NCBI GenBank assembly: GCA_951812925.1
Contig: OX638370.1
Location: 95,122,897 to 95,186,896, forward strand
DNA: 64,000 nt
Source: Calliopum simillimum
Taxonomy: Eukaryota; Arthropoda; Insecta; Diptera; Lauxaniidae
Direction of reading: 5' to 3'
Shown here one piece after another: positions 15,584-38,625 of the stretch (position 1 is its first letter; every line of letters begins with the position of its first letter). The notes under the pieces were generated by a model. It saw nothing but the letters and a program-made list of their open reading frames with translations, made no database searches and had not been told where the DNA came from. The translations under genes were made by a program, and so were the position numbers.

Positions 15584-17493
15584 CACGGTGGTTTTTAAAA
15601 AAATTCAACTTTTTGAAATACCACCCGCGATTTTTTTCGGGGATAGTGTTGGGGGACCCTTCTAGTAACAGAATCCGGGGACCGCGAAATCGAACGTCCA
15701 GCCGTTTTTTTTTTTTCGACATTTTAGTTTTTTTAACGATTTTTGAGAATGTCTCGGATTTATATACATATTATGTACACATATATATGTATGTACGTAC
15801 ATATATATACTTGTGTATGTATGTATGTGTAATATATATATATGTATATATATATACATACATGCATACATACATATAAAAGGTATCGTTTCCGCACCAT
15901 TTATTGTTAAAAAAAATCGGTTTTTTCGTATATAAAAAAACACAAACAAAAACCAGATACAGCAATAGTCACTCCAGATGTGATTTTTGATGCTTAATCC
16001 GAATCCGGTCTTAGAATTGCTCTATTACTTCTGGACTTTGAGATATCCTTACATATATGTATAAAGGACACCACTTTTTTTCCTATTTTTGAAGTTATAT
16101 AACAAGATAAGATAATATTATGCCGTAAAATCTGGTATGACAGTTAATAGCCCTAGTTTTTTTCTTGAAAACTCAATCAAACCGATAACGATATCTTTTT
16201 TTTTGTCGGAGATATCTTTACCTAAAAAGTTAAAAAAGTGCAAAAACACGATTTTTGGCTATATTGGATGTTATATGCAGGACACACAAAATTCTTCTGT
16301 GAATTTCTATTGCCAGAAGCATTTAGTGCTTTCTTTTGGCTTTCAACTGAGCTATTAAATGTTCATCTGCAATATTTCTCTGCAAAGTTATGTTAACTTT
16401 AAAAGCACACCATGAAACTTAAAGCGAAAAATCTCGGTTTTTGGCTATATTTGAGGTCGTATACAGTACGGACGAAATTTTTCTGCTCTTTTTTACCAAC
16501 CGAAGCATTTAAAACCATTCTTTATCTTCAAAATGAGCTAACAAGTGGTCTCTTGTAATAGTTTTCTTAAAAGTTATGACTATTTTAAGACGACATGTTG
16601 CAGCAATACGTATATAAGAAATACTCGTACACTAGACACCCCTGTGAGTTTGCACTTCATAATGTAATTTTTAAACGGTCATAACTTTGTAGAGGAATAT
16701 TGCAGATGAACATATAACAGCTCAATTGAAAGCCAAAAGAAAGTACTAAATGCTTTTGGTAATAGAAATTCACAGAAGAATTTTGTGTGTCCTGCATATA
16801 ACATCCAATATAGCCAAAAATCGTGTTTTTGCACTTTTTTAACTTTTTAGGTAAATATATCTCCGACAAAAAAAAAGATATCGTTATCGGTTTGATTGAG
16901 TTTTCAAGAAAAAAACTAGGGCTATTAACTGTCATACCAGATTTTACGGCATAATATTATCTTATCTTGTTATATAACTTCAAAAATAGGAAAAAAAGTG
17001 GTGTCCTTTATACATATATGTAAGGATATCTCAAAGTCCAGAAGTAATAGAGCAATTCTAAGACCGGATTCAGATTAAGCATCAAAAATCACAACTGGAG
17101 TGACTATTGCTGTATCCGGTTTTTGTTTGTGTTTTTTTATATACGAAAAAACCGATTTTTTTTAACAATAAATGGTGCGGAAACGATACCTTTTATATGT
17201 ATGTATGCATGTATGTATATATATATACATACATATATATATATTACACATACATACATACACAAGTATATATATGTACGTACATACATATATATGTGTA
17301 CATAATATGTATATAAATCCGAGACATTCTCAAAAATCGTTAAAAAAACTAAAATGTCGAAAAAAAAAAAACGGCTGGACGTTCGATTTCGCGGTTCCCG
17401 GATTCTGATACTAGAAGGGTCCCCCAACACTATCCCCGAAAAAAATCGCGGGTGGTATTTCAAAAAGTTGAAATTTTTTAAAAACAACCGTGA
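15584..17493. repeat. 1.9-kb near-perfect palindrome (giant foldback)
   Basis: Arms of about 810 bp (15584-16395 and 16677-17493) are inverted copies with few differences. Even the ATAC/GTAT microsatellite inside each arm (15765-15880, 17195-17315) differs by only one 4-bp indel. The 280-bp spacer is not unrelated: it contains a diverged extra copy of arm sequence (TTTTTGGCTATATT at about 16253 and again at 16440, each followed by similar text). The many open frames on both strands are mirror images created by the palindrome. No protein family is recognisable. Such a unit, if transcribed, would form a long hairpin RNA. Confidence 0.9.
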
Positions 17494-18197
17494 ACATACA
17501 GACAGTACCTTGAGCAGAAAAAAATTAAAATATAACCTTGAAACTTTTATGCTCTTTTAAGTGCAAAAAAGCTTTACCGTGTTACCGTGATATTTTTGAA
17601 ATTTACTATAAAAAATTACATGAGAAATGAATTTATCATTTTTATTATGTTTGTAATGCCAACTTTAATTTGAATCAATTACTTATTTCCGGCACCGGAA
17701 AATTGTATATTTTGGTTTATTTTTGCAGAATAACTTCTATATTTTAGTTGGATTTTTGTAAAAGATTTTTTTTAAGCTCACTTTGACCACGGAGACAAAG
17801 TTCAAAATTTCATTGAATTATCTTGCTGCCAAAAAATGATGAAGATAATTTACTCGTATGACAGCTAGACAGACGGACATAGCTATATAGACTCAGGAGA
17901 TGACACTGGTCAAGAATATGTATATCTGTGGACTTTTGACAAAAATACCTTACTCAAGATAAGACAATTTTCTAGGACTTTGGTCACAAAAATATAGTTT
18001 AAATACATTTTTTTAGTGTAATCTTCATGTCTCTATGATTTCTAGTTCCACAGATATAAGGGTGTTCCATTATTCACGAAAGATTTGAATTAAGTAAAAA
18101 TACATTGAAGAACGAGATTCAAAGCTGCATAAACGAAACTTGGCCACATTATTGAGAAGCAGCTTTTTTGCTCTCATGGAAAGTTTTCAGTTTTGAA
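17494..18197. other. no gene seen
   Basis: AT-rich single-copy-looking DNA between the 1.9-kb palindrome and the TTA-flanked MITE. No open frame, RNA gene or repeat could be supported. Confidence 0.5.
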
Positions 18198-18476
18198 TTA
18201 GGGGTCGTTCACATGTTATGTAACGCGCCAGTGGGGGAGGCAGGGGTCGGAAGATTTGTTACGAAGTGCTACAAGGAGGGGGGAGGTATCATTAACTACG
18301 TTACGTAACGTCGATTTTATAATTTTATGTGACAATAAATTTATATTCAAGTTACCAAAATTAAGATTTGTTACGTTACTAGGGGTTGTATGTTTTGTTT
18401 CGTTGCGTTATTACCGAGGAGGCAGGGGCTAAAATTGATCTAAAATTGCGTTACGTTACATGTGAACGGCCCCTTA
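18198..18476. mobile_element. 273-bp PIF/Harbinger-like MITE with TTA target duplication
   Basis: TTA at 18198-18200 is followed by GGGGTCGTTCACATGTTATG. The right end, reading CATGTGAACGGCCCC, is followed by TTA at 18474-18476. Inverted termini extend about 25 bp with two or three mismatches. A 3-bp TTA duplication and G-rich tips are the PIF/Harbinger signature. The interior is non-coding and holds the palindrome ACGTTACGTAACGT at about 18299-18312, plus further GTTACGTTA motifs that could be subterminal transposase sites. Confidence 0.78.
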
Positions 18477-18700
18477 GGTTTTTTTGTCAAAATGTCACAG
18501 ATACTTTTTTATAAGCCTACCATGCCTCACACTGACTGGTTAAAAATCCCTTAAAGCTGGCCAAAATTCGAAAAATAGAGTTTTTTCAAATAACTTTTAA
18601 CAGATTTTATCTTCTTACTGATATTCATAGAACTCGATACAACGGTCTTGTGATCGCTTCTAAAGTACGTTTCTCAGACGACATATTTCATGATAGTCCG

Positions 18701-19399
18701 GGAGCCGGCAATACTAAAAGTGCCGTCATCGCGGATTCTGAAATTTTTAATGCAAAATGGTAGTTTACACTAAGACGAATAAGAAAAGCTTGGTCAGCAT
18801 GGTTGTAGCCTGGCAGAAATATTTTTAAATGGTTTTTGAATTATTAAATTTTCGGAATGTTTTGCCGTCATCGCGGATTTTGATCAATCTTAATATTAAT
18901 CGATGATAAATTTCATAACCATTCAGAAAAAATCCGGTCGACCAAATTTTTTCTGCCGAAAATGACCGGCAGACCTATTTTAATGGTGCGACAGTGGGTA
19001 CTTCCGGCAGTTTCTAAGCTCACATACCAAGATATTTTTAAATTTGACATTAAAAGACGTAAATTAAAAAACAAAAAAAAACAAATTTCCGTGATAACAG
19101 AGAAATTGTGCCCACCATTAAATTAGGTCTGCCGGTCATTTTCGCCAAAAAAAATTGGTCGGCCGGACTTTTTCTGAATGGTTATGAAATTTACCATCGA
19201 TTAATATTAAGATTGATCAAAATCCGCGATGACGGCAAAACATTCCGAAAATTTATTAATTCAAAAACCATTTAAAAATATTTCTGCCAGGCTACAACCA
19301 TGCTGACCAAGCTTTTCTTATTCGTCTTAGTGTAAACTACCATTTTGCATTAAAAATTTCAGAATCCGCGATGACGGCACTTTTAGTATTGCCGGCTCC
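18701..19399. repeat. 699-bp foldback palindrome
   Basis: GGAGCCGGCAATACTAAAAG at the left is matched exactly by its complement ending in GCCGGCTCC at 19399. Arms of about 280-300 bp are nearly identical, including two GCCGTCATCGCGGATT motifs per arm. Divergence rises toward the centre (about 18975-19110). There is no coding potential. No target duplication is obvious next to the GGAGCC ends. Confidence 0.85.
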
Positions 19400-20019
19400 T
19401 CGCCTATGAGTTTAAAATTAAAATAAAGTGTTCACTGTGAAACTGAACCGATTTGAATGTTTGAATTTGGAATTTCTTTGTAATAGGGAGAACAATCGAA
19501 CATTTAAGCTACAAATTCCCACTAAGTTATACTTTTTCGATAAATGTGACTAGCTTAAATCATAAACCACTTCACATAATCTAATTTGTTCCGGGAGAAA
19601 CCTTTTCTAACACATAAAAAAATTGAGAAACACTTTTAAGCACTTTTTGTTTGATGCGAACTTATCTAAGGCGCTCATAGGAAAATTTAACTCATATTGA
19701 TTGCCAAGTGTAAATACGTGTTGGTCGCCCGAAATGATAAAATTTCTATATATGCGACCGTCCAGTGGAAAAGGGACCTTATCTTCAATCACAAAATTTA
19801 GCAGTACAGCTAAAAATAAGAGATAGTGTAAATTTTAACAGTTTTCAGTTTAAGGTGGAATTCAGTGCTTAGACATGTTCTGAACACTTGACAATGATTT
19901 GATATTATCAAATTACAAGTACCAATAAAAGCGGTCTCCACCATGTAAAAATTGATAGTTGACAAACTTTGAACTTCAAAATCTAAAAACTTGGTTTTTT
20001 TCACATGTACGTGGGCTGA
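19400..20019. other. no gene seen
   Basis: Two short minus-strand open frames (61 and 81 codons) have no recognisable similarity, and the second overlaps the next element's terminal repeat. Nothing else is supported. Confidence 0.5.
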
Positions 20020-20021
20020 TA

Positions 20022-20664
20022 TATATATTTCTGGCCTAGGCAACACTAATGTCAATCACTAAAATCTGGCAACACAATAATAAAGTTTGCTATTTTTTAG
20101 CATAAACGTACTCACAACTTTTTGACGTACGACCATCATTTGTGTTGTTTGCAGTGACTTGAAAAAATCAATTTGGCAAAAAAATGGAATTAACTCGTGA
20201 ACATTTTCGTGCGATCATTTTGCACAACTTTCGACGCGAATTATCACGACAAGAGTGCACCGATGAACTTAAATCTTTATATGGCAATGAAGCACCATCC
20301 AATAGCACTGTGCAAAACTGGTTAAATGAATTCAATCGTGGCCGACGCTGCGTGAACTATTAATGAAATATCGTCATGTGACATACCGTAAGATAGAGGC
20401 ATCCTTGGGCATTCTAATACATTCGATTTTGCATGAACACTTAGTTGTAAAAAACGTTTGTTCTCGTTGGAAACGCCATAATTTATTAGTCGCTTAAATT
20501 ATCAATGGAAAAATTAATTTTCTTAACTCACTGTAAACAAAATAAATAGCTTTTGTAAATCAAAACGTTGTGAGTACGTTAATGCTAAAAAATGTCAAAC
20601 TTTATTATGGTGTAGCCAGATTTTAGCTATTGGCATTAGTGTTGCCTAGGCCAGAAATATATAC
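20022..20664. mobile_element. mariner deletion derivative with >100-bp TIRs
   Basis: The left end (TATATTTCTGGCCTAGGCAA near 20024) and the right end, read as complement, match for at least 105 bp with about 10% differences, through GTACTCACAAC. TATA at both edges fits TA target use. The 640-bp unit contains only the DNA-binding part of a mariner transposase, so it is a short non-autonomous derivative with retained termini. Confidence 0.8.
20184..20497 (+). pseudogene. mariner transposase, DNA-binding domain only
   Basis: The ATG at 20184 begins MELTREHFRAIILHNFRREL and runs 59 codons to a stop at 20361. It covers the first helix-turn-helix of mariner (YGNEAPSNSTVQNWLNEFN). After a deletion and frame change, the second helix-turn-helix follows in another frame (RHVTYRKIEASLGI... 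ILHEHL) and continues through CSRWKRHN to a stop at 20495. The whole catalytic domain is absent. Full mariner proteins are about 340 residues. This remnant cannot transpose, though a bipartite DNA-binding fragment of this kind could in principle compete for TIRs if its frame were open, which it is not. Confidence 0.82.
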
Positions 20665-23600
20665 AGCAGCTTACGTATCTAACATTATGCTCAATAATTT
20701 CTTTTTCATTAGAGAAACATTCTGTAGCGAAAACTTCACTATCAGCATATTATTTAGCATACCACATTACCCGTCAACGTTTCAAACACAAAAAATTTGG
20801 CTGAAATTGATCTAACAATTTGCTAGGAAATTCCATTAAACAAATAGTTACACCACAATACCCGAAGTTCCCCTACTTAAGTTGGAAACCTGTGTAATCC
20901 CCTGCTTGACAAACAAAAATGCAAAAAAAAAACTCTTCATTACAAGTGGAAGCTGCCTACAAAAAAGGATGGTTCACAAAAATAGCAACAAGAAATTGAT
21001 AAAATGAACTCAAAATTCTTCAAATTACACGATTTTGGTAACCTTATCAAGGCGAACCACGACGAATGTTTTAAAAACTTGTACGAAATTCATTTCTAGG
21101 AAAAGGGCCATTTATTATAAATGTCAATGAAAGTCTGAATAAATTATAAAGAACTCTACAGAAAACATCGTCCTCTGGTATCCAAGACCGAATTTTTAAG
21201 TCAGCGATCTTGGAAAGTATGCATTCTAGAGTGAAAGATTCCCTGATCTAAGAGTCAACAATTTCTCAAGTATCTCGCTGATTTTCGTCAGCAATTTGAA
21301 TAGGGTGGGCAAAATCAAAATGCCTCTTTATTTTTATTGATTTCAACATATTCTTATAAGTCGACTTAAAAAAAATCCCATTCTACCATAGTTTTGGACT
21401 AATCAAAAACTTACAAGTCACTATGAATTGCAGACAATCACTGCCGCCAGACTTGTACAGCAATTGACAGTAGTATTTTCTTGTTGTTTCTTTTTTATTG
21501 CTGTCGTCAACATTGTTGTCGCACAGTTGTTGCAGTAACATGTTTAACATATAATAGATAGCGCCACCTATGGTCAGAAGCAGCAGCAGCAGCAATTTCT
21601 GTGCAACGATCTAACAAAAAAAGTCAACAGCAATTGCGGCAAAAGACATTTTGCGTTAAATTGAATTTATTTGACAATTTAATGTTGTTGGTTGGTTTTT
21701 TTGTAGGCAACATTTTCTTGTTTACTTTTTTTGCATAAAACAACAAACAAGGAAACGACAACATATCGAAAAACTTAACAAATTTATTGGTTGATTTGCA
21801 TTTTTATAGCAAATTGATAGGAAACTACGAGTACGCGGAGTACATAGAGCCGGCAAGTTTATTTTGTACTTATTTTTTTTTTTTTTGAGACTTCATTGCG
21901 ATTCGTTGCAGTTCATTTGACCAATGGTAGAAATGCAAATTTTATATCACTTGCCAGCCAGCAAGTGATTAAGGTTCTTTTTGGTCCTTTTTTTGCCATT
22001 TGTGTCCAATTTATATTTTCCATTTTGTTCCTTCAACTCAATAACTCTTGTCTAGTTTTTTACTCAATTAACATTGATTTACTTCGTACTCAGACTTTTA
22101 TCTTTATCTTTATTGTGTCATATCTTATATTTTTTCCATAATTTTATTTACATATTAAATGCATTCCTTCGTCGCATATCGGATTTGTAATCAGCGACAT
22201 CTAATTGACAGGCAACATTTGTGTGACACGCATATCGTCAATTGCTCAAGACATAGTGGGTGAATGTAAATATAAATAATTTAATATTATAGAAACTATG
22301 TATTGAAAGTCTGGGAGCTTTTAGAGGATCTAGAATTATAAACACTTTAATATATAGGAAGTTTGAAAATCCACACAGTAAAAACTTTAGTTTAATTTTG
22401 AAACTAAAAAGTATATATAGAACAATGCCAAAAATGTATTAATTTTAAACTATTTTGGAATAAATTTTAAACTTTTTTGGAAAAAAATCGGAATTTTATA
22501 CCTAAAAAGTTTAAAATCAATAGTAAAGGGAATCAAAACCAAAAAAGTAAAATATTATTTTTTAGTGTGTAGCATAACTTCAGCAAAAGTTGGAAAAGTC
22601 GTTTAGAAGGAGAAAAAGTTATTCAGAATTTTCATCATCTCCATATGCTCCTCCTAAGGTTAACAGCAGTAAACTTCCTCCAATCATCAATATGGTTTCT
22701 GTAGAGAATGTTATTTTAGAGATCTAATAAGATTTCAAAATAGAAAATGAAACCAATGCGTTCACCTCTGTTTATTTCAAAGTCGTTTTGTTCGAGCTCT
22801 TGCATCAAATAACTAAGTAATTGCATAATGTGTCAGAGAGTTCTTTCCTTGTTCAACTATGAGGTTCAACACAGAACGTGTTGTGAACTATGGTTTCACG
22901 TCTTAAATGCACTGCATCAATGGTGGAGTTTCCCAGAGATATGTATGCCCAATTCAACTCTTTTCCAAATGTGTGTACTCTTGTTTTTATCCTACTAAAG
23001 TAAAGTATACAGTAGAAAGAAAGGTTAACATATTTTTATTTCTTATATGGATTCCACGATCCTAATCGTTTCTTTCAACACATTGAATACAGAGATTGCT
23101 TTACAGTCACTTGAGAGAGTAGTATTCACATGCCGACTTTTAATCTCAACCGCAGCAGGCCTTAAGCTCTTTCTGAAGCCAATAAGAGTAACAAATTTTA
23201 CTTCTCTCTTGTTGATCTTTCTACTGTGTACTTTACTTTAATAAGATCACGGCTAGTGATGTGCTAACCAAGACTAAGACCTTAGTCTTGGTCTTGGACA
23301 TTGAGTTTTGGTCTTGGTTTTGATATTAAGTTTTGTTCTTGGTCTTGGTCTTGTAAATATTTCTAAAAATTAATGAGTATTAATTATTTCCAACCCTTCC
23401 AAAATAATTGAATTTTTAAGATGCCAAATTTTGTATTGAGACTATGTATACATTTTATTTAGAGTGCAAACCTTCCTTCACTAAAAGCTTTCACATATTT
23501 ACACCAAAAACATCATTAATATCTGTCATAGCAAACCAGATCAAGCTACGAATATGAAACTGAATAGTACATACTTTCCGGAAATGCTCCAATAAGGCTT

Positions 23601-24019
23601 GTCACCAACTCACGCTTCGATTTTATTAAGGAAAATTAGCAAAGTAGTAGATAACGTGAAAGACGTAAAGTCATGTGAAATACTTAAATACTCATTTGAC
23701 TATGTAAATCCAGGAATCGGGGAAAATTGAAAGGGAAACCAAAGTTATTGCAAAAGATCGTAGACGCTCCATTTGGTCCCTATATTCCCCCTGTGTGTTA
23801 TTGCAAGTTTTTGGTATCCCATCTGCACTGCACTTTTGCGCTCCATATTCGTTTTCCCTAAACGCTTGACATAAATCAACGAATGAAGTGTAAAAAATGT
23901 TTTATGACTTCTCATCACAGAAACCAAAAATTGATTGCATGTACTCGTTGTGTTAAGACCCAATGAGAAATAGTTGTGGGAGGCCACCTACTTGAAATGA
24001 GACAAAGGAGACAAGGCTT
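20665..24019. other. no gene seen; short TTGGTC and CAG repeats
   Basis: Contains a CAGCAGCAGCAGCAG run near 21580, a T tract at 21871-21886 and a TCTTGG/TTGGTC hexamer array at about 23273-23355. Open frames of 60-92 codons show no domain or family likeness. Confidence 0.5.
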
Positions 24020-24725
24020 CATATCATAAGGGTTGATAAAGGAGGCCTATACTAACAAAAAATTGTACCTGTTGGTGATCTAAAATGTACCACTAAAGAA
24101 TTATAGGAAAAAATGTATTTTCTGACTTGCTAGCAAAAAAATTTTCTTGAGTCATCCTAACGTTCTAGGGAAAGCTTTTCTATGAGCTTTTTAAGAGTAT
24201 TTGGCTTATAGGGTTTAAAAGAATTTTGCAAATTTCTGGACCTTTAAAGTTGTTATTTTCAATTTGTTTTTTTTTTTACGTCTTGACTTTCGCGGCCATT
24301 TTATTATAAAAACGGTCTTGCTAACATAACCTTTGGTATTTTTTTTTGAAATTCTCGTTAAATTTCCTTTTATTCAACATACCAATTGTTTAATTTGAGG
24401 TCAGAAGAAAATAGTTTGCGCTTTCTATGTAACAACATATTATGTACGTCTTACTCGCATCCGTTGCGCTTCCAAAAAATTCAAAATGTCAACTTTAAAG
24501 GTGCAGAAATTTCCGAAATCCTTTTAAGCCCTATAAGCCAAATATTTTTTAAGAAAGCTCATACAATGAAAATGTTTTCTCTAAGTGTGACCCAGGATAA
24601 TTTGTTTTGTAAAAAAATTCAGAAAATCAATTCTTTCCCAATAACTCCTCAAGTGTACATTTAAGACCCCGCAGGTGCAGTTTTTTGTTAGTCCCAGAAG
24701 CTTTATAACCTTATTATTTGTACCC
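24020..24725. mobile_element. diverged relative of the 11.1-12.1 kb foldback
   Basis: Left-arm sequence (AAAGGAGGCCTA.ACTAACAAAAAATTG, then TCTAAAATGTACC, CATCCTAACGTT, TTCTGGACCTTTAAAGTTG, CTTTCGCGGCCATTTTA) follows the order of the 11.1-kb element with many substitutions. It has a single copy of the module duplicated there. The right arm (24480-24725) is the inverted counterpart, ending in CCCAGAAGCTTTATAACCTT and TACCCTGTGG. Older and more decayed than the 11.1-kb copy; non-coding. Confidence 0.75.
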
Positions 24726-25640
24726 TGTGGAATGCAGATTCAAAGCACAGATGATTACCATTTTTATTAAGTTTCTAAGTTTTTCCATTTGTGCGCGGCA
24801 CAAATGATGTGCCGACCACTGTTGTGCACTGATTTTCCCCACTCAAACGTAAAAATGTCAAAAAAAAATGTCTCATAACTACTCAAATCGTATATGGGGA
24901 AATCTCAGCAAGAGTGGACTTCGGTGTGAATAGGTCTCGGTTCGCCGAGTCAGCACCCGTTGGATTTCCCATTCATTCCAACATGTCTGGGACACTTATT
25001 GGATGATGTTAAATACAAAAACATGCGTGTGCTACCGCCTAGAAACTTTATTTTTTTTTTTTTTTTTTTGCCGAAATTCGAGCAAAATCCACAAATTTTG
25101 AGTGTGAATTGAATAAGCCGCTTCTATTATTGAGCCATAACTTTTGAGGCGGTTCAGCAAATTGTTTTGGGCTTTTAGTATCTTTAACATGAATGTTAAG
25201 ACGTAAGAAAAACTGCATTTTGTTGATGTGCCTCAGGTAGAACCCTAGATATGGGTCTCCAAAGTTGTGTGAATGGTTTTTACCCAAAATCTGGTAATTT
25301 TCGGTTTCTAACATGCTGCTCTGGAGGCGATTATTTTTTCGCAATATTGCTCATGAAATATGATTTATTAATGTTATGACTAAAAGTAATGTCGAGATAA
25401 AAGGGTGTGCCACCACTGGTTCGGTGGTAACACACTTGAGAAGAAGCTCAAATGTCGATTTTTCATGCGAAATTACGTCTAAAAAAATGGTATTTTGAGG
25501 GGCACAAAAATCTGAGGGCACAAAATTGTCTCAAACCTTGCGAAATCATTGAACCTAGGGCCAATGAATATGTAAAAAAATCGCCCCTCAGAACATTCTT
25601 CAACGATGGCTACTAGTATGTACAATTTTTTAAGGTTCAT
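24726..25640. other. no gene seen
   Basis: A T tract of about 20 bp at 25051-25070 is the only notable simple feature. The 98-codon minus-strand frame ending in a lysine run starts from that tract and shows no similarity. Confidence 0.45.
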
Positions 25641-25689
25641 CTATGTATACAATGACTGTGTGTGTGTGTGAAGCATTATCACTCAGGAA

Positions 25690-25935
25690 CTACTAAGCCA
25701 ATTCAGCTAAAATTTTGGGAATGAGTGTATCTCAGGTATGGAAATGTGTTGATGCTATGCACGAAGGTTTCCGAAGATCACCCGAAGGCTTCATAGTCAA
25801 AACGAAGAATATCTGGGTACACTGGAGGGGAACTTTAACAGGTAGATTTTTTAAAATACCCGAAGGTTCCCGAAGGTCACCCGAAGGCTTCGTACTCAAA
25901 ACGAAGAATACGAGAAGGAAAAAATGCATGGCGAA
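25690..25935 (-). repeat. dispersed copy of the 56.5-57.5 kb satellite unit
   Basis: Two units about 101 bp apart carry CCCGAAGGCTTC followed by (A/T)(T/C)AGTCAAAACGAAGAATA or TACTCAAAACGAAGAATA. These are the reverse complement of the TATTCTTCGTTTTGACTA(T/C)GAAGCC core of the 123-bp array near 57 kb. Upstream, AAGCCAATTCAGCTAAAATT is the counterpart of the 57.5-kb flank (TTAGCTCAATTGGCC). This is a small, inverted member of the same interspersed family. Confidence 0.75.
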
Positions 25936-26204
25936 CTATCAAAAAACCTTAACTAATAGTTTTCTGTGACACCCGAAGATTATATATTATATAATTATAA
26001 TATTATTATATAATTGTTTAATATATTAAAAACTTATGAAAAGATAAAAATAAGTTGGAAATAAAAAAAACAACAAGCAAAAATTAAAATAGTAATTTTT
26101 AATGTATTTGGCGATGCTAAATCGGCGCAGCAATATGACCTTAAAAAAATTTTTATACTAGGTGCCACCCTAAATATACATATGTATGTATTCTCCTTTA
26201 ACTC

Positions 26205-26950
26205 CTAGGAGGAGCATAGGGCCAATATGAAATCTCTCCATTTGTCACGATCCCTTGCGATGACTTTGATCTCTTGCCATGATTTTCCCGATTCTTGAAT
26301 TTCCTTTTCCAACGACCTTTTCCAGTTGGTTTTGGGTCTACCACGTCCTCTACTGCCTTGTAGATTCCACTCAAGGGCCTGGCGACAAACTTCGCTGTGT
26401 GGTTTCCGGAGAGTGTGACCAATCCATCCCCATTTGCGCAGCTTGATCTCGTTTGCTATATCCTTCTGTTTGCATTTTTGATGTAGCTCGGCATTTGATA
26501 TAGTGCGAGGCCACCAAATCTTTAGTATACGCCTTAAGCATTCGTAGACGAATACTTGCAGCTTGTTCGTTAGTTGTTCAGTAACAAGCCATGTTTCGCA
26601 CCCATATAACAAAACCAATTTCACATTCGAATCAAAAATGCGCACTCTCGTTTTGGTGGATATAACGGATGAAGACCATATTTTGTTCAGTTGAGCAAAC
26701 GCGCCTTTTGCTTTTGCTATTCTTGAGTTAATATCCTCTTTTGCTCCACCATCCATGGAGATAATGCTGCCTAAGTACGTGAAGCTTTCGACGTTTTCGA
26801 TGTCATCGCTGCCAGCTCTAAACGTGATGTCATTCCGGTTTGCCTTTAGCTTCATGCTTTTAGTCTTGGATACGTTGATTTTCAGGCCGGCCTTTTGTTA
26901 TTCCAAGACAAGGTCTTCAATTTTGTTTTGCATATCTGAATATACATAAA
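26205..26950 (-). pseudogene. non-LTR reverse-transcriptase fragment (C-terminal)
   Basis: The minus strand is open for 216 codons (26205-26855), and the frame continues upstream past one stop (LVLE*QKAGLKINVSKTK) to about 26950. Visible motifs in order are the end of the RT palm/thumb (FTYLGSIIS), the YGCETW motif, LRRILKIWWPR, KWGWIGHTLRK and the basic GSRGRGRPKTNW stretch near the C-terminus. This is the endonuclease/RT type of LINE polyprotein, RTE/CR1-like. I cannot settle the clade. The endonuclease domain and most of the RT, including the catalytic YxDD, are missing: a 5'-truncated copy as LINEs usually leave. The 3' side runs into ATACATACATATGTATAT, a plausible tail. The copy has landed within the CACCCTAAATATA repeat that continues at 27.1-27.3 kb. 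Confidence 0.85.
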
Positions 26951-27019
26951 TGCTAAATTTTTTTCTTCAGAAATATTCCCTTCTATTTCCATGCTTACTT
27001 TCATCAAAATCGGTGCAGC

Positions 27020-28263: not shown

Positions 28264-28385
28264 TTTTGTACCAAATAGCAAAAACAAGTACTAAAATTGT
28301 CCAAAAAGTACCAAAATTATTTTATACATTTGTGGTCAAATTTTGACTCTTTGGCGATTCTATTAAGTAACAAATCGGTCTCTTT
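28264..28385 (+). repeat. dispersed repeat, copy a
   Basis: About 120 bp beginning TTTTGTACCAAATAGCAAAA and continuing through GTCCAAAAAGTACCAAAA and TACATTTGTGGT. It is roughly 85% identical to 30839-30965 in the same orientation. Non-coding; element ends not determined. Confidence 0.7.
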
Positions 28386-28599
28386 TACATGAACCAAATT
28401 TTTGTTATTATTATTACCATATCTGTTTTTCTTATTGGGTTGGAACTATTCAAGTATTCCACACTACTGCGTTATACATTTCTACAGGGTAATAGCTGCT
28501 TTTTGTAGGTGTTGCGTATAGTTTGTTCCCAACAGAAAATTTCGATGCGCATCCCCAAGATGCAATAGCGATGCGCGTCCTTCTCGCATCCAAAGAGCT

Positions 28600-28765
28600 G
28601 ATTTGTATGCGCATATTTTCTTCGCTATAGGTAGTGAGAGCGAAGCGCATCCAAAGAGCATTTATGAATGCGAGAGCGATGCGCATCCAAAGAGCATTTC
28701 TGGTAGCGAGAGCGATGCGCATCCAAAGAGCATTTCTGGTAGCGAGAACGATGCGCTTTCGGTCA
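28600..28765. repeat. 36-bp minisatellite, array 1 (about 4 units)
   Basis: Unit of 36 bp: CATCCAAAGAGCATTTCTGG followed by TAGCGAGAGCGATGCG. The junction GATGCGCATC is a perfect 10-bp palindrome in every unit. Because 36 is divisible by 3, a 12-residue peptide repeat (RIALATRNALWM) stays open on the minus strand. I regard this as a consequence of the unit length, not evidence for a gene. Confidence 0.85.
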
Positions 28766-28831
28766 TGTTTTAGCGTAAAAAACAAAATAAATCAATAAGT
28801 CGTCTTCGTAAGAGCGTGATGATAGAGCAGT

Positions 28832-28903
28832 GGTCTAGCGACTGGCACTGCGATTGAGAGTTGTAGCAACCGTGAGGTCCTCGGTTCAACTCCGGCCCAG
28901 ACC
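28832..28903 (+). other. 72-nt tRNA-like module
   Basis: The 72-nt segment starts GGTCTAG and ends CCAGACC, which pair at 6 of 7 acceptor positions. Near its 3' end GGTTCAACTCC matches the T-loop/B-box consensus, flanked by a partly paired stem. TAGCGACTGGC near the 5' end resembles an A box. The D and anticodon arms do not fold canonically, so this is probably a tRNA-derived SINE head or pseudogene rather than a functional tRNA. It lies between two 36-bp arrays. A similar module is at 42894-42947. Confidence 0.55.
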
Positions 28904-29059
28904 TAACATAAAAGTTTTCAACTTGCAATTTTTCAATTATAATTAATTTAGTAAAATAAAAATAATTATAATTACATCAAAAAAAAAATAATAGTCTGAT
29001 GTGTCTTTATTGACGAAAGACGTAAAATTTCAATTAAAAATTAATTTTTTAAATATTTT

Positions 29060-29335
29060 TATTGTCATCCAAAAAGCATCCAAAGAGCATTTCTGAATGC
29101 GAGAGCGATGCGCATCCAAGGAGCATTTCTGGTAGCGAGAGCGATGCGCATCCAAACAGCATATCTGGATGCGAGAGCGATGCGCATCCAAAGAGCATTT
29201 CTAGAAGCGAGAGCGAAGCGCTTCGTTCCAATGACATGCCAATGTTAATTTCAGCGCTTTTGGCAACGAGAGAGATGCGCTTCACTGCTGCTTTAGAGCG
29301 CTTCAGAAGCGCTATTGATGCGCTCCATTCCCCAT
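29060..29335. repeat. 36-bp minisatellite, array 2 (about 5 units plus decayed tail)
   Basis: Units like those of array 1 run from about 29069 to 29230 with more variation (AGGAGC, AACAGCATAT). They are followed to 29335 by degenerate AGCGCTT/GAAGCGC motifs. Both strands are open for 119 codons with 12-residue peptide periods (ESDAHPKSISGS-like on plus, LLEMLFGCASLS-like on minus). Simultaneous openness on both strands points to the repeat geometry rather than selection for protein. Confidence 0.85.
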
Positions 29336-29421
29336 TGGGTTGTTTCCTTATGTGTTTGTGTTGGTGTTTCTTTTTGGTTTTTCGTAAATTGGCAACATTG
29401 GCAGCCATTGTGCCACTTTAG

Positions 29422-30838
29422 TGTCAGTGTGGGAATTTCAAAGCACTGACCATTTGTTTTTGTTTCTGTTGTGTTACTGCTCCCTATTTCAGGTTTCCTA
29501 AGGTTAGGTAAGTGAGTTGGTTAGTTTGTTAGTTGCTTTGCTTGTTAGCTACTTTTTTTAATTTTGATTTTTTTTTTTTTTTTTTTATTTGACTTTTTTT
29601 ATTCAGTTTCATTGAGTTTTCTGTTTGCAGTTATTTTTTTAGGAAAAACATTCCCTTCGACCCTTGGGTGCAATAAAATTCCATAACAAAGTGCACTGTG
29701 TTGACCTTATGAACGCATTCTAAATATGTTTTGTATATAATTTTATATTTTTACTTCAAGTCAGTCTTCTTGAAAAAAACAAAAACAGATAGGATGAAAA
29801 TTGTTGCAATTCCTTCATTAGGTTCTGCATACAACAAACAACTGTTTAAAATTTAAGTTTCGTTTCCTGAACATTATTAAAAATGAATATATCAAGATAT
29901 TCCATCTAAGCATGATATTGAAAAATAATGCACAAATCATGGAAACATAATCAATTGATTTCTGTTCAAAATATTTTTGAAAAACAAATTGAAAAATAAT
30001 TCTGACAATAACTTCCCTTTTCTACTAAAAGTATACACCAATTACTCATCTTTAACAAAGTTGAGGTGAATAATGTAATAGCAAGTAGTAAGAATTAATA
30101 TATGACGTAGCCACTTGCAATTTCATATAATAAACTTGTCCAGTTCAAAGGTTGAATGCATAAATTTTCACATTTCATTTTCCTCCAATCTCACATGGAC
30201 AATACAATGTTAAACATAAATTTCCACATCCTTGCAGAGTCAACTTCAAAACAATATCCTGTTCTGCACACATTTTCATATTTTATGCCTTGGAAGAAAA
30301 CTTTTCACAACTCACTTACTACAGTATTGCCAACATGAAAAGACACCGTTAAAGAAAATTTTAAAGAGAAAAAACGAGTATAAATTATTCGCATTAAACG
30401 CTCATAAATAAGCGCCTTAAGTGCATTAAAAGCAAACGATACTTGGCAATGTGCAGCAAATGCAAGCAATGTTGCTGACTATGATGATGATGATGGTGAT
30501 GCACACATGCTCTAGAGACAGAAGCTCATGCACACGCTAATACACATTTGCTCTTCATTCCAATAGATATCAGTAAATTTTACGGTTTGGCTCTTTTTTC
30601 GGGAAATTCGGGCTTGAAAGTTTTAGATAAAACGAACCAAAAAAATCCATGAAATATTTTCATAAAATATGTTCCATTTTTTTTTTAACTTTTGCCCTTA
30701 GAAAGTGCACAGCCACCCAAAAAAAAAAAAACAGGAATAAACTTTTAATGTTTTGTATGCAGTTTTATGTACTTTTCGACGTTGAATCGGACTCCATCAT
30801 CAAAATTTTGAATATTTTGGCAGGATTTCAAGATACAC
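29422..30838. other. no gene seen
   Basis: Includes a T tract (29570-29586) and a GATGATGATGATGG run near 30483. No supported coding, RNA or element. Confidence 0.5.
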
Positions 30839-30965
30839 TTTTTGTACCAAATAGCAAAAAAAGTATTAAAACTGTCCAAAAAGTACCAAAACTATTTAAT
30901 ACATTTGTGGTAAATTTTTGACTATTGGGCGGTTCTAGTCACTAAAACATTACAAATTCCCATGG
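30839..30965 (+). repeat. dispersed repeat, copy b
   Basis: Same orientation and order as the copy at 28264-28385 (TTTGTACCAAATAGCAAAAA, GTCCAAAAAGTACCAAAA, ATACATTTGTGGT, TTGACTxTTxGGCG). Small indels separate the two. Confidence 0.7.
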
Positions 30966-32920
30966 AACCTTTTTAATAGATTTTTCTTAGTACCACAAAA
31001 AATTTTAAGACTAGAACAATTTAAAAATATCGATACATTCTCTACATCACCAACAGTCATACAAACACAACAACCAGCAACCGTTAACAGCGCGTCTAAA
31101 CTGAATGCATCGCATATCATTGCACAGAGTTAAGCGCCTGCTGGCTGCACGCGCCATGACACCATGGTGTCACATGCTGACATTTCGGATCGTCGTCATT
31201 ATCGTCCTAGGTCGATGACTACCACCACACACATGTCACACGATAAACTGAAAAAAGAAAAAATCAAGAAAGGAAACTATCGCGACAAAAAACAAAAGAA
31301 AGTGAAATATCAACAAAAGTTTATGTGTATGGATGCTTGCCGGAAGCGGAAGTCTTGCTAAATTAGAAAAATGAATGAAAGTCAGCGTAGTAGAACAAAA
31401 TGCCTTAAAAAAATAAATTCTAGACGCTGTTCATTGAGCGCGCAATTTATGTCATTAATAAAGCAATGAAAATGTTACCAACAGCAGAATATCCTTAACG
31501 CTTATCATTCAAGTGTGAAGCAAGATATATGGAAAATGGACGATAAGAGGGTTGACACAAAAGTTCATGCTGTATACTTTTATGTGTTATATGATGAATT
31601 GAGGAATTGCAATATTTAAATTAAAGGTAACTCATACGACGTGTGCCGCAAAAAATGCATTTTCATTCAATCTGCCTCTTTGAGTTCTGTTTTAAGCAGC
31701 CCATAATAAAATTTCAAAAATTTTAAGTAAAATTATGTGGAAAATCTTATAAATCGTAAAAAAAGCTGCTATGTTGTATCGAAATTGAGTTAACAGCAAG
31801 CAGTTGGACAACTCTAAATAGCTTGATTTTGTACTTTTTGATAAATTGTGTCTCTTTACAATTTCCATGCACAAAAATCTTATTAATTTAAACGCACTAC
31901 ACTAAGTCAATATTTATCTAACATTCACCCATATATGATACTAATCAGCTTAAAACATTTTTCCAATAAAGCAACTACTCACACTTTTGCCAAAGCATTC
32001 CCAACAGCGCTATCGATATCCTTCCTGCCGCAACGCATGTACTTACATCCATACATTACACAACTGCCAAAAGCTATACATGGACTTTAGCAGATGATAA
32101 AACTTAAACTCAGCAATAAAATACAATAGAAACCACAAAGATAACCAATAAAACTAAGTGAAGAAAACCAAATAGCCAAAAAGATATTGTAGAAAAAGAA
32201 ATTCTCATCCAAAATGAAGATACCACTAGAAGAAAATTTAAGCCATGGAAGTGTGTGGTGGAGCAAACAAAAAACCAACGGAAGAAACATAAGACGATTA
32301 ATAATCCTTTTTCCACATGTTGACAGCAGCCAGCCTGCTCCTACTTCCCACTTCCCTTATACTGCTTTCATTATCAGCTTGTTTAGTTCTGAAAGCTACA
32401 CAGCGTTGCTTTAATGCTTTAGGTCAATATTTAGCAATGAGTAGCTGCACTGCACTTCCCCCGAATGTAAGTCAAATATTTATTTTCGACGGAATTCGAA
32501 CAAAAAACTCCAACTTTCAAAAAATTTGAACAGTGAAATAGATACCCACCGAAATTGTATACTGGATAGAATTCATTGATTTTGATAGATTTTCTTAAGA
32601 ACAAGAAAGTATGAGAAATTGGGTTTATGTAATTGTTGAAATTATATACAAAAAATTTTATTGTAGGCTTTCTTAAATAAAAAAAATGACAAATTTATAA
32701 AATAATTGTCCCAAAATGACTTCCACGTCTCCTTTGGAAGAAATTTTTAAATGTTCACTGGACTGTTTAAAATAAAGCGATATTTTGGAAGCTCCGCAAT
32801 TACCCCTTCAAATTAGAGGGACGCACAGTGGTCGGAAAACGGAAAAGCTGGTCAAAATTCTGAATGTCTGTGAGAGGTTTTCGATGATGCTGATAACGAA
32901 CCCGAAAACCATTTTGCAAA
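30966..32920. other. no gene seen
   Basis: Open frames of 60-70 codons on both strands near 32.1-32.4 kb overlap one another and have no family likeness. No repeats or RNA genes recognised. Confidence 0.45.
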
Positions 32921-32925
32921 AAACA

Positions 32926-33312
32926 AAATGGCGGATCACCATTGTGGACAAAATAATGCTAAACTGGATCTATTCCCACAAAAGTCGGTAATAAGGTGTG
33001 CTTGATGATGTTAATTATGAATCTTGGATTCATTTTTAAAAATCAAAATACCAGATCCAAAATGGTGGACTTAATACTGCTTAGCTGCATCTATTCCCAC
33101 CAAAAACGGTACATGCGTGTTTCTGATGTTGCTTATAACGAATCTGAAATGCATTTTTCGAAACACAAAATGGCGGATCCACAATGATGAACCGCTTAGC
33201 GCAAGACTACATTAATCAACAAGAAGTCAGTATATTGTAATTTTGAGGTGGCTGACTTAGAATCTGAAATTAATTTTTGTAACACATTTTAGCACATTCA
33301 AAATGGCGGACA
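32926..33312. repeat. AAAATGGCGGA(T/C) tandem repeat, 110-132-bp spacing
   Basis: AAAATGG(C/T)GGA(T/C) occurs at about 32927, 33058, 33168 and 33300. Between them GGATCTATTCCCACAAAAG / GCATCTATTCCCACCAAAAA and GAATCT(T/G)(G/A)(G/A)AT.CATTTTT recur in order. This is a short array of diverged units, non-coding. Confidence 0.7.
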
Positions 33313-35399
33313 AAATAAGTTTGGTTTCTGGGATCATTCATTACGAATAGGAAATGCTTTACAAAAGCCCTTATAACATTCTTCGAGGCACTTCAGGGCA
33401 GCTCTGAATACGATACTGGCAGAAAGTAGAACTTAATACTCGAACGAGAATGGTGCATAGGTTTTTCTAACCTCTGAAACGAACAAAGAAGATCGTTCTA
33501 TACCATTTCCAAAGGTCCATAAAGTGAGCCATGCGGGTGTGATGAATTTCGATGTTTTTGGGTTGGGAATTTTGAACTTTCCCATTTTCCCGAAAAGCGG
33601 AAAGATTATTTTGCATAGCGTTGTTTATTTTTTCAGCTAGACAAATCCGCAAGAAGAGTTAGCGATGAAATCTTTCAATGCAGAAATTTCGAGCTAGTTT
33701 CTAACTGGCCTTGAATGAAGTGTTCTCCGGAAAACCTTAAACTTCCCCGGAAAATCAAAAAAAAATTTTTGAGCGCTTGCTGTAAAAACAGCTATCAAAA
33801 ATGTAAAAACTACTACAAATGACATAATATGTATATCATTGAAAATGAACACTTTTCAATAAGTCTGCACCTTAAACAGTTAACATTAGACGTATGTTGT
33901 TCTCCCGCAGAAGACCTCAACGTCCGATCTAGGTCAAGAATCTCAAATAGTTTTTCGTTTCATATCGCTAGTTATGATGAAAACAGAAATTTTTTTCGAG
34001 CTAAGATTTTAGATCAAATAATTTTTGATTAAAAACTATTAACATCTTGATCACGTTTTCATTATATTAATGGTCTGAGGTTAAAAATAGTTCCATATAA
34101 CACTTTCTTAAAAACGGAAAGAAGGTTTTTAGCGGTAAACACCTGCAAATGCGCCTAAGTATCATAGTGTTTCTCATAAATGGTTCAGTTTAGTGACGAA
34201 TGGTGAAGCTACCAATTCGGCGATATGCCTCTGAAAGTTGTAATTTTCTAAAAAAAGGTGGCAGTATACAAATTCAATCCAGTCTATGTAGACAGTCCTT
34301 AGACCTAAAATTTGAATAATTATGAACAACCTGGGATAGTTTCCCTCAAAGTATTGAAGAACACAATTGTTTCATTCCATTTTTTTCTTATTCAATGGTA
34401 AATATTAACTCTCAGCTAGTTTACAAGCTAACTTCGCAAGGATACTAACAACATCTTACCATAGCTAAAAGATTTTTCGTTTATCCATGGCATGGCAGTA
34501 AGATGTATAAAAAGAGATGGAATATAAACAAAAGAGAGAGACGCATGCATTATTGAATAAAAATACATAAATATGGACGAGTTTGTTTACGTTTTTTTCA
34601 ACTATTCATGTTTTGCAAAAAAACTCTGGATGATGATGGACATGTTTATGCGATGCAAACAATATCGTATGGTCGACGACGATGCATTGCAATCCATCTA
34701 CAGAAGCAGGACGACGACGACGCTATTGAGTGAATGAAAGTAAGCAGCTGATGAGACGACATTGAGCTGCTTGTAGCTGTCTTATACGAGTAGCTTCAAC
34801 GTACGAAGGATACTTTCTGTTGGTCGTCGTAGTCGTCTGAATGCTCTCTACTTAAAAGATGCTAATGTCAACAAAGGATAATGTTACATGTTTGCTTAAG
34901 GATGTTTACGCACAACATGTTGTGTGTTGTGTATTATGCTGCTGTTGCTATTTGTTTTTTTGTTTTTCTTTCATGTGATTTTATTCAATTTTTCTTAAAG
35001 AAATTGCTTCTTTTTTTTCTAATGTAAAAGTTTCCAACAGAGACAAAATTTAATTGGCTTTTTATTCAAAGAAATTCTTTCGTTTTAACGAAATTCTTCT
35101 TCTTATATTTAATTAAATTTATAGCTTAATTTAAATAATTGTTATATGAGAGTGGATTATATTAAACTCACCGCTTCCGCTGCTCAAACCCAAAATGCGG
35201 TGCATCTAAGTCAAGCGCCCAAACTCCTCTACCGTTCCCATACTGACATGTTTGCTCATTTGCATTTTAATGTTGCCCAGTTTTTTTTTTTCGGGGCGTT
35301 CGTTTCATGTTTGAATTTAATGACAGTTAACGGTGGTGGAGTATTAATGTTGAGACTTAAATGGGAAATTAAAAACCTATGTTGCTATTATGGTTCTCG

Positions 35400-35431
<32 letters not shown>

Positions 35432-35730
35432 ATATGCCATGTTGAAAATTTGTTTATGCAAATGTCAATTTAACATTAAAGTAGCAGTAGCCACTAATAA
35501 CCAGCAGTTATAACAAAAACAACAACAAAAACTAACAACCCAAAAACAACAAACAACAACAAATTAATATGTGCAGCATGTTGTTGACTAATTGAAATTA
35601 ATTCAATGCGGATATCTCAATTGGTTTAGCGTTAAAAAAATCACAAAAAAAATTAATTTTCATTTGATTTTCAAAGTTCTAGCATATGAAATCAAGTGAA
35701 AATAGAGTTGTTTCGTATCATTACTTTTGG
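33313..35730. other. no gene seen; GTT microsatellite
   Basis: A pure GTT/TTG run fills 35399-35431, with CAA runs at 35515-35560. The 99-codon plus-strand frame at 35146 ends in a cysteine run encoded by that microsatellite and is not considered real. Confidence 0.5.
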
Positions 35731-36830
35731 AAGTATATCGCGACCTTAGAACAACAGGGTTCTAACTGACATTTTTTGTGAAATTGAGTTATATATTGCT
35801 TCGTACTAAATAGACCACGCTCTTTCGATTACCGCTACTCAAATATTTCTATCTCGTATGGTTTCTGAGATAATTAATGAAATTGAGATGCACAAGGTTC
35901 TATCTACACATTTTCGAATTAAAATTAATTTCACAAAGTTCTAACTGCCAGATAGAACTTTATGCTTCTGTAAGAGAGCAGCCAAATTAGATAAAATCGT
36001 GTTATTTTGTTAAACAAGCCCCGATTTTGAACCGACATGGCTCATTTTGATAGTAATTGAACTTAGAAAAAACTAGCACTTAAGATTTATGCAGTTTTTG
36101 ATAAAAGGTCGAAAAACTGTTTTGGAAAATTGAAGAATTCGAATCAAAAATAGTCATTTTCGATAAATTTGCCAACGCTAAATCCGAATCTGGCATCAGA
36201 ATCGCTATATCTTGTAGTGTTTTCGAGATATCCTACCGCAAATGTTCAAAAATGATCAAAAACACGAATTTTGAGGTTGTTTCGAAGACGTCCCAAATTG
36301 TTTTACTCTTTTCCATTGAATGCAACAAAGTTATACTCGCTTTAAATGATACATATTAGTATGTCAATTTTTCAAAAACCCTTTTTCGACCTTTTTTCAA
36401 AAACTACATAAATCTTAAGTGTTGGTTTGTTGTAAGTCCATTTACTTACAAAATAAGCCATGCCGGCTCAAAATCGGGGCTTGTTTAACAAAATTACACG
36501 ATTTTAACTAATTTCTCTGCTCTCTTAGAGAAACACAAAGTTCTATCTGGCACTTAGAACCTTGTTTCTCAATTTCAAGTACCTTATCGTTTAGCAACAA
36601 AGTTCTATCGATTTTTTAAAACTTAAGTTCCTTCTTAATTAGACAACGTAATTTAATTATTTTAGTATCAATGAAATCCTCGCTACAATCAAATGCTTGT
36701 AATATAAATAATATTGTGATTAAATTCAATTCCTAAAAGTTATACGACACGAAATATTCAAACATAGATTTCTCGAAAGTGATGTGAGTGTAGATAGAAC
36801 CCTGTTGTTCTAAGGTCGCGATATATTCTT
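35731..36830. repeat. 1.1-kb foldback palindrome
   Basis: AAGTATATCGCGACCTTAGA at the left is matched by TCTAAGGTCGCGATATATTCTT at the right. Arms of roughly 380-440 bp follow, more diverged than in the 15.6-kb palindrome, with a non-mirrored centre (about 36130-36385). The centre contains AATCCGAATCTGGCATCAGA...TTTCGAGATATCCTACC, close to text inside the 15.6-kb palindrome. No coding potential. Confidence 0.85.
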
Positions 36831-37186
36831 CTTAAATTACGATTTCAAGACTTATAATTTGAAGTATGATTTATAGAAGTTATCTGTCTATCCTGTATTG
36901 TGAGATTCCTTATACTCGAAGGTTAGATCAATGAGGTTTGATTCTAAATACTTGAACTTGTGTAAGCCCCAAAGTGGTCCGCGTACTATATACTGATAAA
37001 ATATGGTATTTCTCTTCTTCTTCTAACTTTTAGAGTAATTTTATTGCAATTTATTTGCTAATTTAACACATGGGTTGACAAGTCCGTGGTCTCATATAAA
37101 AAAAACAAATTTTTTGGATAAAATGGACTTTAAACAAACTATGACTTATTCAAGACCGATACCATCATTCCAGAGTTTCTCATGTT
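36831..37186. other. no gene seen between two foldbacks
   Basis: About 355 bp of AT-rich DNA. No open frame or repeat supported. Confidence 0.5.
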
Positions 37187-37971
37187 CAGTAAGAAGCAAA
37201 ACTGTCAACATTTTTGCTATTTTCGACTTAGTACTGCTATAGCGTCCGTTCTGATTACATGACCAACAAGAAATATGATCCAAACGGAAGCTTAACCTTC
37301 CCTCTATTCAAATATGTGAACAATTTTACCGAACTTCACACCATAAAAAAAAATAATGAACAAAAAACCATTTTGAAAGCATGGTTTTGCAACACTTTAA
37401 CTGATGAGCGGACAAACCTGGAACGTGAATTTTTCCTAGTTTAAAACTTGGATATTACATGAGGTCATCTTAGATGCGCCATAACTTTGCAAAGAAAAAT
37501 CGTAGATGACCATTCATCACTTTTTTTGAAAGGAAAAGAGCAAGATATTCTAGTGCATTTTACGGAATAGAGCAGAAAAAATCCTAGTGTCCTGGAATTT
37601 AATTTGAAAAATTGCAAAAACGTCGTTTTTTTCACTTTTAGGTTGGGCTACTTCGAAATCCTGACGAGGTAGAGATTTTGTGGCCATTGGAATTGTTTTT
37701 TTAAACTTGGAAAAATTCACATTCCAGGATTCCACGAACAACAGTTTTAGTGGTGCAAAACTGTCAACATGTTTTCGAAATGGTTTTTTGTTCATAATTT
37801 TTTTTTTTTTTTTTTGGTGTGAAGTTTGGTAAAATTTTTCACATATTTGAATAGAGGAAAGGTTAAGTTTCCGTTTGGATCATATTTCTTATTCGTCATG
37901 TAATCAAGACGGACGCTATGGCAGTACTAAGACCAAAATAGCAAACATGTTGTCAGTTTTGTTTCTAACTG
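37187..37971. repeat. 785-bp foldback with CAGT ends
   Basis: The ends CAGTAAGAAGCAAAACTGTC and its imperfect complement (ending TTTCTAACTG) lead into arms of about 260 bp. These include a TAGTACTGCTATAGCGTCCG stretch with its mirrored form and a CTTAACCTTCCCTCTATTCA stretch with its mirror. The 265-bp centre is unpaired and includes CATAACTTTGCAAAGAAAAA...TTTGAAAGG. CAGT tips are Tc1-like, but the flanks (TT/TA) do not give a clean duplication. Confidence 0.82.
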
Positions 37972-38164
37972 TATTTCGATACTTTTCCTGCAGAACGATT
38001 TAAATTTCGTCTCAAAACAGGCGTTTTTTCAGTGATCACTTTCTTTTTTGAGCGAAATCTTTTTCCGGTGTGCACTTTTTTTAGATCCGCAAATGGGTAG
38101 AAGTCGCTGGGAAACTTATTCTATAAGGTGCATGGAGAAGGAATTTGAAACGGAACGTACAAGC

Positions 38165-38625
38165 TACAAATTATTTTTTTTTTTTTTTCGTATGACCTAT
38201 TGTTTAGGAGATATTTTTTCAACAATTTAGAAAAAACCATTTTTTCTAAATATCTCCAAAACGGTTCATTCTAGAAAATAAATAGTTCATTTTTTAGAAC
38301 GTTCAATTCTCTATACGGATCTCTTTGTACCAATTTTTCGTCAGACTTACTCTTCATGAGATATCGCGACTTGAAAATCATTCAAAATTTAACATACAAT
38401 AGTAGTACGCATAGTACAATGTACAATTTTGAATGATTTTCAAGTTGCGATATCTCATGAACGATAAGTCGGACGAAAAAACAGTTCGAAGAGACTCTTA
38501 TAGAGAATTGAACATTCTAAAAAATGCATGAACTATTTATTTTTTTTTTAAGTTTCAGGTTTGCTAAAAAAATATCCCCTAAGCTAAAAGTCATATGAAA
38601 AAAAAAAACAAGAGCACATCGAAAT
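38165..38625. repeat. ~460-bp foldback, centre near 38.4 kb
   Basis: Arms meet around TAACATACAATAGTAGTACG (38389-38425). Mirrored text includes ATTTTGAATGATTTTCAAGT, GCGATATCTCATGAA, ATAGAGAATTGAAC and AACTATTTATTTT, continuing to TCGTATGACCTATTGTTTAG against GCTTAGGGGATA on the other side. Weak similarity may extend the arms to about 38080 and 38670. No coding potential. Confidence 0.75.

Follow-up and report, generated by a model that had tools for sequence, protein, structure and literature searches.

Giant foldback elements with different ends share an old internal module in the fly Calliopum simillimum

Ends and transposases are the basis on which families of DNA transposons are classified. 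How, then, do elements with different ends come to have the same interior? The question is raised by a stretch of 64,000 nucleotides (the window) in the lauxaniid fly Calliopum simillimum (contig OX638370.1, positions 95,122,897 to 95,186,896, assembly GCA_951812925.1), an AT-rich and repeat-rich region that contains several giant foldbacks, labelled here by F and a number. The original prediction for this locus held that these otherwise unrelated-looking palindromes may be assemblies of one ancient module of ~100–190 bp. The assembly comprises 690 Mb in 334 contigs, five of those met here being 117–163 Mb long.

Three of the foldbacks, F1, F4 and F5, have in their interior a non-coding module composed of part B (~95 bp) followed by part A (~190 bp), in the same order in all three (Table 1). 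In single-sequence nhmmer searches of the window, F1 matches 37455–37654 in F5 at E=3.9e-7 and 36140–36249 in F4 at E=2e-5, and F6 matches F0 at E=3e-7. The two sequence pairs from which the module had first been proposed, 15995–16049 with 36180–36238 and 16680–16745 with 37480–37554, are both found at these places and align as written; they belong to the F1–F4 and F1–F5 links, respectively, and both links stand above decoys when profiles are used. Profiles built from the copies of each family, with E-values scaled to 690 Mb, connect F4 with F1 at 5e-13 (2.8e-10 in the opposite direction), F4 with F5 at 1.8e-9 (6e-8), and F1 with F5 at 1.5e-6 (1.6e-6). It is chiefly part A that yields these cross-family values; the connection of F1 with F4 through part B by itself has E 0.002–0.003. 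The mean column identity is 71% for A (five rows, two from F1 and two from F5 among them) and 68% for B (four rows), and eleven copies or families of B have a mean pairwise identity of 56%.

A chance similarity of AT-rich palindromes is one rival explanation, and some observations call for caution: the base composition of the window itself, the third link of the original prediction, a phrase pair at 7340–7372 and 38193–38215, which taken alone amounts to 22 matching bp and counts for little, and random non-foldback queries, 10 of 25 of which give off-diagonal matches at E<=1e-3, four of them on transposase-like stretches and one being module B at 36159–36250. A first comparison of foldback pairs by crude gapped scoring, with 20 dinucleotide shuffles per pair, was too lax, and nhmmer was used instead. 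By that scoring 7 of 36 pairs beat every shuffle and 29 do not; F1–F4 (390 vs 343), F1–F5 (437 vs 373), F6–F0 (438 vs 289) and F1–F6 (323 vs 285) are among the seven, and F2–F8, F3–F6 and F6–F7 exceed their shuffles narrowly. The controls leave chance or low complexity with almost no credibility. Of ten reversed-query decoys, the two F1 halves alone found matches, all within the AT microsatellite of F1 itself, and when run against the reversed sequence of window and loci (338 kb), the profiles of A and B reach best E-values of 1.9 and 0.83, so that the comparison of module profiles with decoys, named beforehand as the test, favours the module by far. For the word GAGATATC the expected count is 0.93 and the observed count 9, with 8 of the 9 in F0, F1, F4 or F6. 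The 18-letter pattern GCTGAATCYRAATCYGGC, a form of B distinct from the consensus of F1, F4 and F5, is found 812 times forward and 788 times in reverse genome-wide, 1600 in all, and its reversed control not once on either strand. Chance is refuted by the reversed decoys, this count of 1600 vs 0 and the profile E-values.

The elements that carry the module differ in their ends. Genome-wide copies were collected by scoring 40 candidates for each family: of 2719 first-look candidates for F1, 2951 for F4, 935 for F5, 2619 for F6 and 2785 for F0. F1 consists mostly of long inverted arms. The genome search returned 243 matches, and the 39 scored places other than that of the window are 97–99% identical along the 1417-bp query, the match covering positions 1–1371 in one case. 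An exact 4-bp target site duplication (TSD) of varied sequence flanks 18 of the 18 copies with both ends (20 were fetched, two of which have lost an end), and the left end of one copy (L017) reads CAT. Together with the window element, the copies are 98.6–99.4% identical to their consensus, which marks the family, as judged from its sequences, as young. F9, a family of 952–960 bp derived from six inverted-pair loci of GCTGAATCYRAATCYGGC, has ends CACGG...CCGTG and exact 4-bp TSDs in the three copies of those six loci that have both ends; module B lies in both of its arms, and no match to module A at E<=0.001 is found inside the element.

The ends of F1 and F9 fit the published hallmarks of Chapaev (CMC) transposons, namely 5'-CAC...GTG-3' termini with TSDs of 3 to 4 bp (PMC4079192). 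The likeness extends to the ends and the 4-bp TSDs; unlike Chapaev, F1 and F9 are mostly palindrome and are known here without any transposase (PMC4079192). The earlier statement that no named family fits still applies to the module, within the reach of the tools used here.

F4 ends in CGCGACCTTAGAACAACAGGG and its complement, and in the flanking sequences of 15 of 16 copies with both ends, that of the window included, a 4-bp TSD is repeated exactly (20 loci, four without both ends). Full F5 elements are palindromes of ~1.2 kb formed mostly by long inverted arms, with CAGTAAGAAGC ends and copies 92–97% identical to the consensus. Their CAGT...ACTG ends, one base off in some single copies, resemble those of Tc1/mariner elements, of which this motif is typical. 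One script finds TA flanking both ends in 9 of 11 copies and a looser one in 11 of 14 (15 were fetched); a constant TA is indistinguishable from part of the terminal inverted repeat (TIR). Module carriers are thus found with CAC...GTG and a 4-bp TSD (F1), CGCGACC and a 4-bp TSD (F4), and CAGT with TA (F5).

Such a pattern could also arise by plain common descent from one ancestral foldback, the ends and arms having diverged and a constrained module having changed more slowly. F1 and F9 fit this: both begin with the seven bases CACGGTG, both have 4-bp TSDs, as F4 does likewise, and they are ~70% alike in the module region (about 402–682 of the F1 consensus), beyond which BLAST finds nothing alike at E<=1e-6; the module is therefore the slow part in this pair. 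Against descent stand the ends of F5, CAGT with TA, and of F6, TAGTAC with 3 bp. It is the transposase that determines the ends and the length of the TSD, and drift between such types is not usual. We hold common descent to be unlikely.

The arrangement of the module differs between the families as well. In F1, B is followed by a gap of ~160 bp, the tandem copies A1 and A2, and then the inverted A1' and B', which bears out the proposal that tandem and inverted module copies occur in foldbacks that otherwise look unrelated. The view of the foldbacks as mere assemblies of modules fails, each family having its own ends and arms. The elements appear at different stages: B and A stand once each in the loop of F4; in F1 the module occupies the arms, and the loop contains a second A in tandem; and F5 has B and A in each arm, as F9 has B.

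Copies of the module also lie outside these elements, which raises the possibility that an older short repeat with its own ends entered several families of miniature inverted-repeat transposable elements (MITEs) and was amplified with them. Stray copies in the window and in fetched flanks (L005, L028, L039, L044, L051, L066 and, weakly, L037) agree with such nested insertion, as do the roughly equal limits of the shared stretch in F4 and F5. One of them, at L028, has 79% likeness to F4, of which it may be an older relative. The tandem A of F1 and the B of F9 without an A match (E<=0.001) indicate that the inserted unit would not be constant, and nested insertion seems improbable. At least 16 inverted pairs of GCTGAATCYRAATCYGGC, 378–515 bp apart, are found among the matches listed. 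Four single loci were also looked at: L109 turns out to be a copy of F4, and therefore not all 1600 matches are new families; the other three (L108, L110 and L111) contain part of B.

A second module, C, is common to F0 and F6. Three longer F6 copies are ~1.39 kb long and 91–94% palindromic, with TAGTAC ends and an apparent 3-bp TSD in all three; the F0 consensus of five copies is ~1.36 kb long and 94% palindromic, with ends TAGCCC and no consistent TSD among the five. Judged against this consensus, the window copy of F0 would have lost the central ~200 bp and the right end. The F0 consensus and an F6 copy are 68.5% identical over 267 bp (E=3e-20), so that the TCGTA(T/C)GAC...GAGATAT phrases, both present where they had been noticed, do mark a real relationship, in two foldbacks that are otherwise related. 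The profile of B meets the GAGATAT phrases of C at E 0.002–0.6, and it is by this short phrase alone that B+A and C are joined; the link is only suggestive. What stands of the original prediction is an old recurring module of ~95–190 bp; there are at least two of them, B+A and C, and a single ancient module common to all foldbacks is not shown by these comparisons. Within each arm of F0, the C profile also finds matches on the two strands that largely coincide in position (6890–7748 and L112–L116), as if the arm contained older inverted copies of C.

Several identities of the module have been considered and set aside. The RNAalifold fold of A is weak, with a positive covariation term (+1.24), and a conserved RNA fold is rejected; an 11-row alignment of B has no clear 3-base periodicity (0.69/0.70/0.73), as a coding origin would require. 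One open reading frame (ORF) across module A has no homologue, no candidate sharing three words with it. As to a transposase ORF in the elements themselves, the F0, F1 and F5 copies of the window have stop-to-stop ORFs of no more than 139 aa (not scanned against family libraries). One module pattern matches 0 viral stretches; a second gives 9 matches in viral_contigs, in which the module profiles match little beyond the 18-mer itself, and these are treated as chance. Four module words have no match in published text.

A further explanation is functional constraint, by which the module would be a cis element, for the binding of a transposase or host factor or for hairpin initiation, that is kept by selection. 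In Galileo, further binding sites for the transposase lie in internal tandem repeats, and the TIR-220 modules of Tetris may act likewise (PMC4079207), and coral CMITEs retain an internal region across families (PMC2872659). The lack of a conserved fold of A and of clear periodicity in B speaks against constraint. The ends that accompany the module are of three kinds at least; the module therefore cannot simply be the binding site of its element's own transposase. We regard constraint as a doubtful explanation.

The preferred explanation, which we consider probable, is that these large palindromes are DNA transposons, non-autonomous and non-coding and of several end types, between which the module has been captured by template switching during repair. 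They form multi-copy families of a large MITE or foldback type. Each element would be moved by whichever transposase acts on the ends it has; after breakage or excision of a palindromic element, repair with template switching would copy the module into it from another element; the arms would then lengthen inward, drawing the module of the loop into both arms, and the composite element would be amplified by transposition. Precedents exist for the separate steps: the TIRs of Galileo extend and incorporate non-TIR sequence (PMC4168063), and gap filling and fork switching produce chimeric TIR transposons in animals (PMC8277862). The homology of the interiors, the multi-copy families, the TSDs of F1, F4, F9 and three F6 copies, the differing ends and the tandem and inverted arrangement are observed; capture by repair, inward arm growth and the identities of the transposases are inferred. 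A number of points weigh against this explanation. Neither a breakpoint nor a donor–recipient pair that shows a capture event has been found, and no autonomous element is known for any of the families, a protein-based search not having been made. The assignment to different superfamilies is drawn from ends and TSDs alone, and part B by itself links F1 and F5 weakly (E 0.02–0.4 at 690 Mb). The arms of F1 are 96.8% alike within one copy, compared with 98.1–98.5% for the same arm across copies, and are therefore not equalised in each round; those of F5 are 94.0% alike within copies and 91.9–93.2% between copies, a small within-copy excess only. The arms of F6 are left out of this comparison, one of the three copies having been in the opposite orientation.

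A bolder variant is that B+A is a transferable internal domain that passes among superfamilies and raises the success of palindromic elements whatever their transposase. Families of short interspersed nuclear elements with different heads and tails have a common central domain, which offers a parallel; we hold this variant to be rather unlikely.

Table 1. Foldback elements and module copies in the window (positions of the window; position 1 is its first letter).
Feature	Position	Strand	Evidence or remarks
F1, complete palindromic element, 1909 bp	15584..17492	+	ends CACGGTGG...CAACCGTG; TSD AACA/AACA
Module B, left arm of F1	15951..16066	+	nhmmer and profiles
Module A, first tandem copy (A1), F1	16235..16416	+	nhmmer and profiles
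Module A, second, diverged tandem copy (A2), unpaired loop of F1	16421..16603	+	58 bits to inverted A1; profiles
Module A, inverted copy (A1'), F1	16656..16837	-	nhmmer and profiles
Module B, right arm of F1	17006..17121	-	nhmmer and profiles
F4, palindromic element	35739..36820	+	ends CGCGACC...GGTCGCG; TSD ATAT/ATAT; loop deletion relative to family consensus
Module B, loop of F4	36148..36250	+	nhmmer and profiles
Module A, F4, shortened by deletion in window copy, longer in family consensus	36247..36337	+	profiles
F5, shortened copy of ~1.2 kb palindromic family	37187..37971	-	left end CAGTAAGAAGC, right end TTCTAACTG
Module A, F5	37456..37645	-	nhmmer and profiles
Module B, F5, diverged in window copy, few-base overlap with start of A	37621..37723	-	profiles
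F6, partial copy of ~1.39 kb palindromic family, module C, diverged right end at 38693	38150..38693	+	
F0, shortened copy of ~1.36 kb palindromic family, module C	6736..7808	+	
Stray module B outside the large foldbacks	49059..49152	-	nhmmer with F4 query, E=3.1e-4; profile
Weak stray module B	30767..30839	+	E=0.0011 with a profile not containing it; 74% to L037 flank over 89 bp

The window copies of F4, F5, F6 and F0 are all shortened. Other palindromes of the window stand apart from the module. F2, F3 and F7 as single queries have no cross-match at E<=1 in the window and are rejected as members; the C profile reaches F3 at E=0.34. F8 matches solely 24168–24584 and 11304–11390 in nhmmer searches of the window. 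F2 and F3 (18693–19407 and 20008–20677) are palindromes with no clear relatives in the window, and F7 (46997–48297) has 629-bp arms of 98% complementarity around a 43-nt loop. The foldbacks at 11432–12048 and 24168–24584 are related (E=8e-25), the first adjoining a 129-bp tandem repeat at 11213–11466. A 123-bp tandem repeat occupies 56515–57473, with an isolated inverted match ~31 kb away at 25743–25832, and a 36-bp unit recurs in two nearby arrays (28630–28756 and 29076–29221).

A Pfam scan of seven ORFs of the window gives a match for five and none for two: DUF4817, which is a helix-turn-helix domain, DUF6451, whose relatives have it alongside reverse transcriptases, Transposase_1 with HTH_48, and DDE_3 and RNase H below the curated cut-offs. 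The DUF6451 frame (26205–26897, minus strand) is 66% identical to its best match, and its relatives have a reverse transcriptase domain. The stretches 5730–6749, 41775–42308 and 43854–44621 are mutually related, with DDE_3 below the curated cut-off in 41775–42308 and no match in 5899–6285. Neither a tRNA nor an Rfam match reaching the gathering score is found in the window.

Known systems resemble the present one in parts. Galileo, of the P superfamily, likewise has long TIRs extended by internal duplication and uptake of non-TIR sequence; it has TSDs of 7–8 bp and a palindromic target motif, and the portion of the source used here mentions no internal module crossing superfamilies (PMC4168063). 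Tetris is also a non-autonomous foldback, with ~220-bp tandem modules (TIR-220) in its TIRs; its TSDs are 8–10 bp long, a Mutator affiliation is suggested, and its module is described within one family and the satellite arrays of that family (PMC4079207). Neither the 7–8-bp nor the 8–10-bp TSD occurs in F1, F4 or F6. Foldback4, as dissected with ModuleOrganizer, is similarly a palindromic element of repeated, inverted and truncated modules, described as confined to one family of D. melanogaster (PMC2955051). An unclassified repeat of another fly, the 488-bp "Unknown 6" of Calliphora vicina, is palindromic over nucleotides 1–465 and is likened by its description only (PMC3630058).

The closest published case is that of the coral CMITEs, a set of MITE families that differ in their TIRs but have in common a conserved interior of unclear origin, and in which tandem arrays occur (PMC2872659). 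Different TIRs around a shared internal region are what F1, F4 and F5 have too. The CMITEs are ~100 bp long and belong to one superfamily, with the piggyBac hallmarks of a TTAA TSD and CCYT ends (PMC2872659); this TSD and these ends are absent here, and, unlike the CMITEs, the present elements are ~1–1.9 kb long, are mostly palindrome, and share their interior across types of ends and TSDs. A literature search, mostly of open-access text, found no report of interiors shared across superfamilies, the CMITEs alone coming close.

For the biology of these elements, homology of the interior between elements of different end types means that the history of an interior can be separate from that of the ends around it. 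It suggests that transposon families can exchange an internal part and yet keep the different ends that their enzymes recognise. The sharing of the module also provides a way into the formation and growth of foldbacks. In annotation, unrelated families would be merged by any library entry based on the module, and the elements represent several natural constructs with which internal cis sequences may be probed.

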